A DNA stretch of 47,790 nucleotides, taken from assembly GCF_900103255.1 (NCBI RefSeq), contig NZ_FMWS01000009.1, forward strand, positions 1 to 47,790. Reading direction: 5' to 3'. This DNA is from Gilliamella bombi. Its GTDB lineage: Bacteria; Pseudomonadota; Gammaproteobacteria; Enterobacterales; Orbaceae. Below the pieces are notes generated by a model. The model was not told where the DNA came from, made no database searches, and was given only the letters and a program-made list of their open reading frames with translations. This document shows positions 13,749-46,830 of the stretch, one piece after another (positions within the stretch are counted from its first letter, which is position 1; each line of letters starts with the position of its first letter). Both the position numbers and the translations under genes were made by a program.

Positions 13749-14869
13749 ATGCATTATCATTTTAGACACCAGACACCAGACACCAGCACTGGCAAACCTA
13801 TGTCTTAAATTTATCAAATAATCCTATTCGACGAGTTTTTTCACGAAACTTATTTATACCTTCCAAATTATTTCTCAACGAATTATCGAAATTATCGCTC
13901 AAATCACCTAAAACAGCTTTGTTAGTATCAGCACTGTTATTATTGTCATCGTCATGGAATGTACAGGCAAATGGTAAAAAGGTTAGAGCGGGTAATCGTA
14001 GTGATGCAATAATAATACCGTCGCCAGTTATCAATTATGTAAGGCCAAATCTAAATTTTGGTGACGACGAATATGCAGGCCAAGCTAGCTTATGGAATCC
14101 TGATAAGGGCTTTTTAGTACAATCAATTGATTTTGAATCAATTCATCCTGAATTATACAACCTCAATTTCCCGACCACAGGTATGCATAATTTATATTTT
14201 GATTTACTTATAACTGGAGTAAATATAAATAAATTGACATGGGAACCCGTTACTTTGGGGGGAATCACTGCGACAGTGACAAATGTTGTAGCTAATGATA
14301 GGTGGATCCCTGATGAAGATAAGGGACAAGTTGTCGCCCGTGTTAAGCTAACAGGTCCAGAGGCTAGAAATCAATGGTACAATCCTCATCCTAACCCAAT
14401 TGCTAAGCCAAGGTTACCGCAGACGTTTGAGTTAGTGGGTAGGGATATTAGTACCGCTGATGAGGTAGTAAAATATGGATTTGTGTTAAAGCAGTGGTTC
14501 GTCAATCGGGGTGATCAATTGAAAACTTATAGTGACCAGTTAGCATGGTGTAATAGTTTGGGGTATCGAATGCCGAGGATAAGGGATTTAACCAATTCGA
14601 AGTGTGGTGTAGATAATAATTATTTCCCATGTATAAATAACATAGATGGGGCTACGCCGTCATCAGGTACTCTATTTTACCAGCGTCACATAAGAGCAGG
14701 ATTTTTTACGGAATGGGGCCGCATGGACGACTACGCTGGTGCGGGCTTCGTTTTTTACGGCTACTGGACAGGCGACGCGGCAGGTAGCACCCGGTTCGCT
14801 GTCGACTCGGACGACGCCCGCGTCCGCCCAGCTAGCCACACCAATTATGCTGTTTGCATTGCGCCTTAG
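13749..14869 (+). CDS. Exported lectin-like surface protein, out of frame at a 7-bp repeat (phase-off?)
   Basis: Starts MHYHF at ATG 13749, then loses frame in a 7-bp repeat and stops at TAA 13806. With one or four repeat copies instead of three, the frame joins the rest and gives about 368 aa with one copy. That product has a polar N-terminal extension containing WQTYVLNLSNN, a signal peptide core ALLVSALLLLSSSW ending near VQA-NG, a middle domain shared with the 45-kb protein (PNLNFG, NFPTTGMHNLYFDLL) and a C-terminal DUF1566/Lcl-like domain (LAWCNSLGYRMPRIRDL, YGYWTG, YAVCIAP). Four cysteines are spaced as in the paralogue. Without a shift, only an internal TTG at 13919 could start the body, with no ribosome site and no basic n-region. 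The last 42 codons differ sharply in codon use (separate entry). Function not known; adhesion or recognition is inferred. Confidence 0.6.
13764..13786 (+). repeat. Heptanucleotide tandem repeat, 3.3 copies
   Basis: AGACACC three times (13764-13770, 13771-13777, 13778-13784) plus AG. It falls five codons into the ORF beginning at 13749. The paralogue at 45037 and the remnant at 47493 have a single unit-length segment at the same place and stay in frame across it, so three copies add 14 bases and shift the frame. Confidence 0.85.
14717..14842 (+). other. NNC-codon-rich 3' segment, candidate DGR variable region
   Basis: Forty-two codons from GGC to ACC at the end of the lectin-like domain. About 25 end in C (GAC, TAC, GGC, CGC, GTC, AGC, ACC and others), while the rest of the gene uses C-ending codons about once in ten. 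The C-ending codons are interleaved with normal A/T-ending ones (GCT GGT, GTT TTT, CCA GCT), so this is not simply a foreign GC-rich block. Adenine mutagenesis of AAC codons in a template repeat would produce this pattern. Invariant-looking codons (AAT TAT GCT GTT TGC) close the domain. Confidence 0.45.
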
Positions 14870-24109: not shown

Positions 24110-25498
24110 TTATCTTGATGCCTGCTCTAAAATAACTTCAACAGGTTGTTTTTGAATATAGATCATCCTAGCTATTAATAGTAATGCCGCAACAGCAAGT
24201 CCTGATATAATACCTATCCAAAAACCAGCTGCGCCAATTGGCTGAATGATTAGGTCGGTTAATCCTAGAACATAACCAACCGGCAATCCGACTACCCAAT
24301 AAGAAAGTAGAGTAATAAAAAAAATGCTTTTAGTGTCTTTATAACCTCGAAGCACATTACTAGCTACTACTTGTAAATAGTCAGACGCTTGATAAATAGC
24401 GAGTAAAATAATAAGTTGCATACAAATAGCAATTACAGCATTTTCTTGTGTAAATATGGTGATGATTTGTGAACTAAAAATAACTAAAATTAATGCAACT
24501 ATAATGGCGATTGCTAAGGATATGGCTAAACTAATGTAAGAAGTTTGTTTGGCTAAAACTGGTTTTCTTTTGCCCAGTAAATAACCGACACGAATACTAG
24601 TAGCAACCCCAAGAGATAATGGAATAGCGAAGGTTAAACTGCTGATGGTGAAGATAATTTGATGTGCAGCAACGGTTATTTGACCTAATGGGGCAATTAA
24701 TAATGCAATCACAGCAAATAAGCTCATTTCAAAAAAGTAAGCGAGAGCAAGAGGAGTACCAAGCACAACAATTTTTTTGATTATAGCACAATCAACTAGT
24801 TTGGTGATTGGTGTTAGGCGAATGTCGCGTTGGCTTGCGCTAGTGAGTGTATATAAGCGTATTAATATAAACATGAGCCAAAAGATGATTGTCGCTGTAA
24901 TGCCACAGCCGACCCCACCAAAAGCAGGTAAGCCTAATTTTCCATAGATTAAAACGTAATTAATTGGAATGTTGGCAAGAAGGGCAATGAATATAATCAC
25001 CATGGCTGGCTTTGTGTTTGATAGCCCTTCACATTGATTGCGGTAGACCAAGAAAAGCAAGAATGCTGGCACACCCCACATTATGGCACGTAAAAATTTG
25101 GTTGCCACGTCCATCATTTCTGGATCAATAGGGTGATCGTCCGAGCTTCTTAAGTTTATTATTAGGTCGGAATGATAGAGAACTAACATCATAAGCACTG
25201 ATAATACCAATGCGATGACAACGCCTTGCCGAGTATGATCGGCAACTTGGTTTCGTTTAGCTGCACCATTTAGGTTTGAAATAATTGGCGTTAAAACAGT
25301 GAGTAAACCTTGCCCAAATAAAATTGTTGGTAACCAAATTGAAACTGCAATAGCCACTCCAGACAGGGCGGTTTTACTATAATTTCCTGCCATAATGGTA
25401 TCGACAAAAGTGATTGCGGTTTGCGATACTTGCGCAATTAGCACCGGAACTGCCAATTTAACCAGATTTTTTACTTCGTGTTTATAATGTTGTTTCAT
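24110..25498 (-). CDS. mdtK: MATE family multidrug efflux pump MdtK/NorM
   Basis: 462-aa inner-membrane cation-coupled drug exporter with twelve hydrophobic segments in two related halves. AVPVLIAQVSQTAITFVDTIMAG is the MATE opening; RNQCEGLSNTKPAMV, ANIPINYVLIYGKLG and ILRGYKDTKSIFFIT match E. coli MdtK, as does the QASR C-terminus. The ATG lies 9 bases past a rimO stop codon, so translation is probably coupled. Its first 19 codons are duplicated just upstream in a 245-bp tandem repeat; the full-length gene itself is intact. Confidence 0.95.
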   Translation of the reverse strand: MKQHYKHEVKNLVKLAVPVLIAQVSQTAITFVDTIMAGNYSKTALSGVAIAVSIWLPTILFGQGLLTVLTPIISNLNGAAKRNQVADHTRQGVVIALVLSVLMMLVLYHSDLIINLRSSDDHPIDPEMMDVATKFLRAIMWGVPAFLLFLVYRNQCEGLSNTKPAMVIIFIALLANIPINYVLIYGKLGLPAFGGVGCGITATIIFWLMFILIRLYTLTSASQRDIRLTPITKLVDCAIIKKIVVLGTPLALAYFFEMSLFAVIALLIAPLGQITVAAHQIIFTISSLTFAIPLSLGVATSIRVGYLLGKRKPVLAKQTSYISLAISLAIAIIVALILVIFSSQIITIFTQENAVIAICMQLIILLAIYQASDYLQVVASNVLRGYKDTKSIFFITLLSYWVVGLPVGYVLGLTDLIIQPIGAAGFWIGIISGLAVAALLLIARMIYIQKQPVEVILEQASR

Positions 25499-25933
25499 GG
25501 TGTTAATTAACGTTTAACCGTTCCCCATAGATCGTACTCATCGGAATGCTCAATGTTAACCTGAACAATATCACCGACTTTGACTTGGTTTTCTTCGTTT
25601 AAATAAACAACGCCGTCGATTTCAGGGGCATCAGCCATGCTACGACCTATTGCACCTTCATCATCAACTTCATCAATAATGACAGCTACCGGAACTGCCA
25701 ATTTAACCAGATTTTTTACTTCGTGTTTATAATGTTGTTTCATGGTGTTAATTAACGTTTAACCGTTCCCCATAGATCGTACTCATCGGAATGCTCAATG
25801 TTAACCTGAACAATATCACCGACTTTGACTTGGTTTTCTTCGTTTAAATAAACAACGCCGTCGATTTCAGGGGCATCAGCCATGCTACGACCTATTGCAC
25901 CTTCATCATCAACTTCATCAATAATGACAGCTA
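25443..25933. repeat. Perfect 245-bp tandem duplication across the rimO-mdtK boundary
   Basis: Copy 1 covers 25443-25688 and copy 2 covers 25688-25933, period 245, with no mismatch seen on reading. Each copy holds the last ~58 codons of rimO, the 9-base gap and the first 19 codons of mdtK. The junction is GCTA/CCGG at about 25688, with one shared base and no longer homology. Both parental genes stay whole; the middle of the array makes a hybrid ORF. Confidence 0.95.
25507..25743 (-). CDS. Chimeric ORF: MdtK N-terminus fused to RimO TRAM domain
   Basis: 78 aa. Residues 1-19 are those of MdtK ([19 protein letters not shown]); from residue 20 ([14 protein letters not shown]) to the end (LWGTVKR) it is the C-terminal TRAM domain of RimO. 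The fusion is in frame and ends at a rimO stop. It sits between rimO and mdtK with the same 9-base spacing on both sides, so it would be translated as mdtK is. TRAM domains bind RNA; in RimO the domain contacts ribosomal protein S12. Whether the product is stable or used is unknown; it is most likely a by-product of a recent duplication, or an assembly artefact. Confidence 0.6.
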
Positions 25934-45036: not shown

Positions 45037-46830
45037 ATGCGCTATAGTACTTGGTATCTAACCTGCCAAACCTGTGTCCTAAATCTTTTTCAATTTCATC
45101 ATAGTCAAAATCAGACTCATTTCCTATTTTTATTGCCTAATATAGCGAAATTGCTAGATTTATCGGCCGAATTGCCACCAAGGCTATTACCGATTTCCAA
45201 GTTGTTATTCAAGTTCCCACTGGTTTTTATGGCACTGTTATTACTTTCGTATTCGATGAGTTCGCAGGCATTATCGGCGCAGACTTTGCAGGATATTCAC
45301 GGCACGGCGCCTTATTTAACGTTTGATGGTGGGGTAACAAAAGCAAATGATATTAGTTCATTGTTGGGTATTACGTTATCGGATGGAACAATAATTAAAG
45401 CGAACAAAGATAACTCAAGTACAACCAGTCCGATTGAATTACCGAACGCTTTGGATACCTTTGAAACGGTACAAAGTATGGTGCCTTTTCCTCGATCTGG
45501 CAATAATAACTACCCGACTATTAATCTCAATGATGTCGTTAATGCCCCATATAACTATGGGCGAGATGATGATGGTGATGATGATGATGGCATCAGTGCG
45601 ACAGGAAGCATAACGGTAAAGTGGGAAAGTAAGAACGCCAATAATGCCTATGAGGACATTACCTCAATCGTTAAGCGTAACCCTAATAGTTTGCTAAATG
45701 TTTGTGATGCGCCATATAGGTTAACTATTAGTTCATCGGGAGGTCTGTTACAGACGCGATCTGGTGTACCAGATCGTATCGACTTTGCCAGTGGAAGTCA
45801 TACCTATTATATCAATCCTAATAAGGCAATTGTATCGGTGTGCTATGCCCAACCTAATTTGGCTTTTGGCAGTACTTCTAATGGGATGGGGCTTAATGTT
45901 GATGGTTCGACGTGGGTGGCTAATAAGGGGTATAAGGTATTAAGTGCTTCGAATAGTGGAAATTATAATGGGGCGTCATCAGTTACTAGCAATAACTTTC
46001 CAAGCACTGGTTCGCATGGGTTGTTTTTTTATTTGTTACTTAAAAATATAACCCCAGCTCAAGTGTTAGCAGCTAATGGTAACGTGGTAAGGGCAGAAGA
46101 AGGTGGTAATGTCAGTTTGACATTGAGTACAGAGAATACACCACGTTGGCAATATAAAAATTATAATAACTCAGGGGCATTAGGTAATGCCGAGCCAAGT
46201 TTAAAAATAACCTTGAAAGGACCAAGATATAACTCAAATAATAAAAGTTTTACACCTGTCACATTCAAACTATATGCCGATAGTTCGAAGACAAAATTAT
46301 TATATGAATTTAAAATAATGCGCTGGTATATAGCTCAGCCAAATGTTAATTATCGTGGTACAGGTAATGGTTCTAATGCCCAAACACAAGTTAGTAATTA
46401 TTGTGCAAGTTTTGGTAGTGGCTATCGAATACCAGATGTAAATGACTATACGAATGCAAATGCAAGTCGTTATGGTTGGCGAGGCGGTATTCCAGGAAGA
46501 GCCGAAAATAGTGCTCGCGTTGGTTTACCTGTTCGTCAATTAAGCTATCAAGAAAGCACAACAATGTGGCAGGGCGGGCTATTTAATGAATGGGGGTGTA
46601 TTGTTAACAATTTTGATGCAGAAGATTTGGAAAGCGTTAGATGTAGCGGTTATCCAGGCAGTGACTGGGATATCTATATAGGGTATTGGAGTCGAAGTGT
46701 AGGGGTGAATGCAGGAGATTCTCATCGTAATGGAAAAGGACTTGGTGTTCATTCAGCTTTAGGGTTTCCTTATAGTTATGATTTTTACAATGCTAGTGCC
46801 ATTACTCGTGCAGTTTGCGTAACACCATAA
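45037..46830 (+). CDS. Exported lectin-like surface protein, full-length paralogue
   Basis: 597 aa. N-terminal extension MRYSTWYLTCQTCVLNLFQ, a long hydrophobic stretch and a signal core FPLVFMALLLLSYS ending near SSQALSA. Then a unique part with a low-complexity acidic run (DDDGDDDDG, about residues 178-186) and a cysteine pair, a middle domain shared with the 13.7-kb protein (PNLAFG, NFPSTGSHGLFFYLLL), and a C-terminal DUF1566/Lcl-like domain (NYCASFGSGYRIPDVNDY, FNEWGC, IGYWSRS, AVCVTP) with four cysteines. Unlike the paralogue, its final codons are normal for this genome. The start is fixed by residue-by-residue agreement of the first 19 codons with the paralogue; no strong ribosome site. 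Function unknown; adhesion inferred. Confidence 0.7.
   Translation: MRYSTWYLTCQTCVLNLFQFHHSQNQTHFLFLLPNIAKLLDLSAELPPRLLPISKLLFKFPLVFMALLLLSYSMSSQALSAQTLQDIHGTAPYLTFDGGVTKANDISSLLGITLSDGTIIKANKDNSSTTSPIELPNALDTFETVQSMVPFPRSGNNNYPTINLNDVVNAPYNYGRDDDGDDDDGISATGSITVKWESKNANNAYEDITSIVKRNPNSLLNVCDAPYRLTISSSGGLLQTRSGVPDRIDFASGSHTYYINPNKAIVSVCYAQPNLAFGSTSNGMGLNVDGSTWVANKGYKVLSASNSGNYNGASSVTSNNFPSTGSHGLFFYLLLKNITPAQVLAANGNVVRAEEGGNVSLTLSTENTPRWQYKNYNNSGALGNAEPSLKITLKGPRYNSNNKSFTPVTFKLYADSSKTKLLYEFKIMRWYIAQPNVNYRGTGNGSNAQTQVSNYCASFGSGYRIPDVNDYTNANASRYGWRGGIPGRAENSARVGLPVRQLSYQESTTMWQGGLFNEWGCIVNNFDAEDLESVRCSGYPGSDWDIYIGYWSRSVGVNAGDSHRNGKGLGVHSALGFPYSYDFYNASAITRAVCVTP

Follow-up and report, generated by a model that had tools for sequence, protein, structure and literature searches.

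A very probable diversity-generating retroelement variable region, apparently orphaned, in a dispersed gene family of Gilliamella

One gene in the 47,790-nucleotide stretch of Gilliamella bombi DNA analysed here (the window) ends in a run of codons with C in third position, and the question it raises is what wrote this tip and whether the writer is still at hand. In DGRs (diversity-generating retroelements) of the Bordetella phage BPP-1 type, a reverse transcriptase (RT), Avd and a template go with a C-terminal variable region (VR) and with change that is adenine-specific. The initial annotation proposed that the segment is, or was, such a variable region. If so, there is more at stake than one gene: a bee gut symbiont with a 2.6-Mb genome has around 40 target matches in it, the RT is present in some species, broken in others and absent from the rest, and such a family would let one follow both the action of a DGR on many loci and what stays behind. 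Should the proteins be surface-located, their variation may bear on colonisation, competition and phage adsorption. A literature search found no paper joining Gilliamella with a diversity-generating retroelement or with a retroelement. Coordinates are collected in Table 1.

Table 1. Positions of the features discussed (window coordinates unless a locus is named)
Feature	Position	Strand	Basis
Likely ATG start, not in frame with target ORF	13749..13751	+	Paralogues having 1 or 4 units are in frame
Heptamer array AGACACC, 3.3 copies, between likely ATG and ORF	13764..13786	+	Tandem Repeats Finder
Target gene: open frame, hydrophobic signal-like stretch, then variable tip	13769..14869	+	Translation
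Very probable DGR variable region (VR), 3' end of target gene	14718..14856	+	Aligned to G017 template positions 1-145
Distant paralogue of target, no NNC signature	45037..46830	+	BLASTP 22.8% identity, 298 columns, E 3e-9
Template repeat (G017)	L057 2579-2726; L105 7292-7439	opposite to RT	
Same gene order with and without Avd-RT between AI-2E-transporter gene and two targets	L107 4308-9355; L040 1-5000 (G000 C78)		

The codon signature and a template in a sister species

Between 14717 and 14842, C is the third base of 26 of the 42 codons; upstream in the same listed ORF this is true of 27 of 266 (Fisher p ~8e-13). The excess first noticed is thus real, its hand count of 25 having been one short. 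Across the genome around 10-19% of codons end in C, and in the other 24 scanned ORFs the maximum is 16 per 42-codon stretch. The C-ending codons alternate with ordinary ones, an interleaving that had been described before and is seen again on recount, and the 45-kb paralogue, said to lack the signature, has at most 11 of 42.

A full DGR core is found in one of the 35 Gilliamella genomes examined, that of G. bombicola R-53248 (G017), where it adjoins a PTS gene. Its RT, of 421 residues, carries the motifs IPIGSASSQ and YMDD, which we take to be DGR-like, and its best PDB match is 8ub7 (E 1.3e-29), an entry whose title names a DGR RT; no NCBIfam model passes for it, the top one, a group II RT, lying below cut-off. 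On these sequence grounds the RT is of DGR type. PF00078 matches occur in 11 of the 35 genomes, and relatives of the G017 RT (E up to 1e-20) in three genomes out of 44 in the family, each from Gilliamella (G017, G012 and G023). In the same three of the 35 genomes a divergent ORF of 145-148 residues adjoins the RT. It matches NF033474 at E 1.2e-4 with 22.4 of the 80 bits required, which is below cut-off; its model is four-helix (pLDDT 64.8), and Foldseek places the Avd chains 8ube and 4dwl among the best hits at E 0.08-0.1, with none at E 0.001. Profile and fold thus agree, weakly but jointly, on an Avd-like protein. No relative of the RT was seen among viral contigs in a search sensitive to close relatives only. 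Elsewhere in the genus, the best PADLOC match of an RT in G027 (L059 1369-2313) is RT_VI (E 4e-79), and RT pairs are present in G006 and G026.

The template, 148 bp and AAC-rich, lies on the opposite strand, 25 bp beyond the G017 RT stop codon. Translated in the frame of the VR it reads N M N N Y A D A G F V N N N Y W T S D and onward. It was first found by a scan that forgives mismatches at template adenines, and blastn and an alignment with equal penalties agree with it. Its AAC codons align with the NNC codons of the window segment. With equal penalties the window mismatches the template at 25 of 43 template adenines and at 18 of 96 other sites (p ~8e-6), and within AAC or AAT template codons at 13 of 14 first positions, 8 of 15 second and 3 of 15 third. 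The 18 mismatches away from adenine show that template and window VR, as aligned, have drifted apart. The bias extends to the G017 copies themselves: the 21 that score at least 90 among 37 regions fetched, out of 40 matches in that genome, differ from the template at 435 of 906 A, 183 of 789 C, 135 of 695 G and 62 of 500 T. None of the 37 regions matches the template at every non-A site, the best having 12 mismatches in 100, and therefore no very recent copying is seen even there. For template counts in the window's own genome (G000) a five-copy set was used, because a larger set counts the copy on contig C66 twice (L003 and L039).

The RT, Avd-like gene and template in a sister species support the proposal that the tip belongs, or once belonged, to a DGR as its variable region, and the segment aligned to the template was very probably written by such an element. 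A Gilliamella DGR, comprising RT and Avd with a separate template repeat, would copy the AAC-rich template into the 3' end of the target and place varied bases opposite template adenines, so that AAC would become NNC, with the third-position C and other non-A bases largely kept. Like the BPP-1 system it has an RT, an Avd-like gene, a template and a C-terminal VR with adenine-specific change, and the RT and, weakly, the Avd-like fold match DGR entries in the PDB. Unlike in BPP-1, the Gilliamella targets are scattered over the chromosome away from the RT, the template follows the RT but on the opposite strand, and no significant hairpin was found after the VR. Past the stop codons of many targets, L159, L150 and L154 among them, a GC-rich stretch like GGGCCGCGGGGGCGGTTATGG does recur. 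Fold z-scores for such stretches behind VRs, against plain shuffles, run from -2.6 to 2.0, with no significant hairpin of the kind expected of a cis element (IMH, hairpin).

Apparent absence of the core from the window's genome

A search of the whole genome for template, RT and Avd, advised in the initial annotation, finds none of them in G000 but, in the congeneric G. bombicola, a DGR-type RT, a template and an Avd-like gene. The G000 assembly has no match to the G017 RT, a search of it for Avd found none, and its seven blastn matches to the template all lie inside target genes. A group II intron was considered as source and rejected, the sole PF00078 match in G000 (C98) being group II intron-like and on another contig. 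At one site the presence and absence of the core can be compared directly. In G023 Avd, an RT reduced to a 130-residue remnant and two targets lie beside an AI-2E-transporter gene, and in G012 too Avd and RT lie beside that gene, the RT match breaking off next to an ORF with integrase-core domains (L106 6877-7251). In G000 the AI-2E-transporter gene and two targets are there, but blastn finds nothing that matches the Avd-RT stretch, and in G017 and G021 an mnmE-like gene directly follows the transporter gene. Judged from gene order, loss of the core from G000 is the simpler reading, with gain in the other genomes as the alternative.

It is unlikely, though worth keeping in mind, that the DGR is still in this strain and is hidden in an assembly gap. 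The assembly consists of 132 contigs, and some target matches begin or stop at contig ends (e.g. C42 at base 1, C52 at 4713 of 4715); furthermore G010, where no RT was detected, has two copies that differ at 22 of 43 template adenines and at 11 of 102 other sites. Yet the completeness of G000 is given as 100%, separate searches for RT, Avd and template all came back empty, and at the AI-2E-transporter site, occupied by Avd and RT in G012 and G023, G000 has neither. Loss rather than a missed contig would account for this, and the window VR is apparently orphaned in its genome. Because RT, Avd and template were not found there, the window copy is probably a relic, in which ordinary mutation and recombination are now the sole sources of change.

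That targets can be orphaned is already known, since an account of cyanobacterial DGRs (PMC7517822) describes remote paralogous targets, 219 copies across 21 genomes, and in Nostoc a copy that keeps remnant homology but has no RT close by. The Gilliamella case is like these in its scattered paralogous targets and its orphans apart from the RT, and unlike them in that two genomes alone have 40 and 39 matches, and in the domains involved. In Thiohalocapsa PB-PSB1, where another paper (PMC10907252) describes nine DGRs in one genome, remote or incomplete loci are also met with and diversification in trans is considered; in contrast, there is one full core among the 35 Gilliamella genomes.

A dispersed family and the changes in its tips

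The ORF of the target has no usual start codon before TTG 13919, and its protein may be exported, to go by a signal peptide judged by eye. Its C-terminal 159 residues match 41 places in G000 at E up to 1, a number that includes the window gene itself and one weak match at E 0.36; a profile built from 19 copies finds 40 matches in G000 and 39 in G017 (E up to 1e-10), with at least one match in 32 of the 35 Gilliamella genomes, and G010 has 41 target matches. By these matches the target domain is a dispersed gene family, and one template would therefore probably act in trans on many loci. Not all of the 40 and 39 members still resemble the template. The copies share a scaffold as far as an EWG motif, and a Cys close to the end, with variable sequence between. 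Among the 36 copies with the EWG motif the C-ending share of tip codons runs from 0.07 to 0.68, several other copies in G000 carrying the same NNC signature as the window gene, and in the closest copies the constant codons are the same and in place, with variation at NNC codons.

Searches of the target tip for a lectin fold gave no Pfam or NCBIfam match and no PDB relative, and its structure model is too poor to be of use (pLDDT 45); the tips might bind variable ligands at the cell surface. A phage origin of the target was considered and dropped, there being no relative in a phage collection. Of 14 regions beside hemL/erpA examined for a syntenic copy of the window gene, only that of G010 has a family member, 45.8% identical; none of the 14 has a match to feoA/feoB, and the contigs of G023 and G017, at least, end there.

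The clearest view of change at the tips comes from a related pair, L078 in G023 and L079 in G007. Their tips differ at 31 of 45 template adenines and at 8 of 100 other sites (p ~9e-14), and by codon position the differences number 19, 18 and 2 of 52. Their bodies show 19 differences over 491 sites, in which adenines are not over-represented (2 of 145 against 17 of 346), with third-position changes at 3 of 164. These are related copies rather than proven orthologues, because the alignment of the locus spans the gene only. It had been suggested that strains be compared for substitutions confined to the first two positions of NNC codons; the pattern is all but complete in this pair, which stems from two other Gilliamella species and not from strains of the window's own. 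In 26 distinct related pairs (from 30 rows, one G010 gene occurring twice, as L098 and L112, and with nine of 95 loci unplaced: L032, L020, L086, L135, L160, L170, L171, L173 and L174), the differences at template adenines are higher in 21, lower in four and equal in one. Some tips are frozen, with 0 of 42 template-A and 1 of 94 other differences between L116 and L115, and 1 of 42 and 5 of 100 between L094 and L081. The bodies of L116 and L115 have an adenine excess of their own (12 of 147 against 10 of 350, p 0.015), and the other four pair bodies tested have none. A-biased tip differences are also seen in G010 (e.g. L080 and L123), though no DGR RT was found there.

Ordinary diversifying selection with gene conversion among paralogues is a very improbable source of the variable tips. 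There are many paralogues to convert, the tips in several related pairs are frozen or have changed evenly, and the G000 copies are now without a detected RT; however, selection at the amino-acid level would not lead one to expect 37 changes at first and second positions against two at third in the tips of L078 and L079, nor a third-position C in a genome with so few C-ending codons. These processes are disfavoured as sole cause and may act on top of a DGR. It is more improbable still that recombination brought in the tip from some GC-rich donor, with no link to a DGR, a reading already thought a poor fit in the initial annotation: the tip has a GC content of 0.63 against 0.38 in the body and a large family offers copies that could recombine, but the interleaved codons align with a template adjoining an RT, the changes fall at template adenines in codon positions 1 and 2 with position 3 spared, and the constant codons stay in place across related copies.

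The heptamer array at the gene start

Writing of the tip by a DGR leaves aside how the gene is expressed, and here its start is of interest. Read from the likely ATG, the frame meets a stop after 19 residues, and a heptamer array stands between that ATG and the target ORF. Several Gilliamella genomes have arrays with a 7-bp unit where related genes start, the unit sequence varying by lineage and the unit length staying constant. Copies with one unit (L078, L081) or about four (L110, L118) are in frame, and L119, with 10.7 units, is out of frame; L094 and L081, with three units and one, have bodies 99.6% alike. A strict leader is found in 46 of the 70 gene starts examined, 36 out of frame and 10 in frame, some rows being doubtful (L005 is a wrong leader assignment, and the in-frame rows L023, L024 and L025 contain N). 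The leader contains TTGACA, 17 bases and TATCAT, which resembles a promoter, and for this reason the ATG at 13749 is only a likely start.

In phase-variable surface genes, shifts in the copy number of simple tandem repeats change the reading frame. The Gilliamella arrays are like these in standing just behind the likely start with a unit that is not a multiple of three, and the ORFs behind them remain open, which suggests that they are used at times. They are unlike them in that the copy number is nearly constant among the related copies compared; about three units is by far the commonest state, which speaks against simple phase variation. The array is accordingly put forward, from its sequence, as a candidate phase switch. 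Among the matches listed in a literature search on DGRs with phase variation, no title concerns arrays at DGR targets. DGR tips together with heptamer arrays would unite two known routes to variety in one gene family. Possibly, though we hold it only tentatively, the Gilliamella repertoire has two layers, one DGR template writing the tips of dozens of scattered exported proteins in trans and the arrays choosing the few that are made, with the core coming and going from species to species and leaving frozen repertoires behind, that of the window's genome among them.

Apart from the target family, a 245-bp unit stands twice in tandem at 25443-25933 in the window (2.0 copies, 100% identical), which may be a recent duplication or an effect of assembly.
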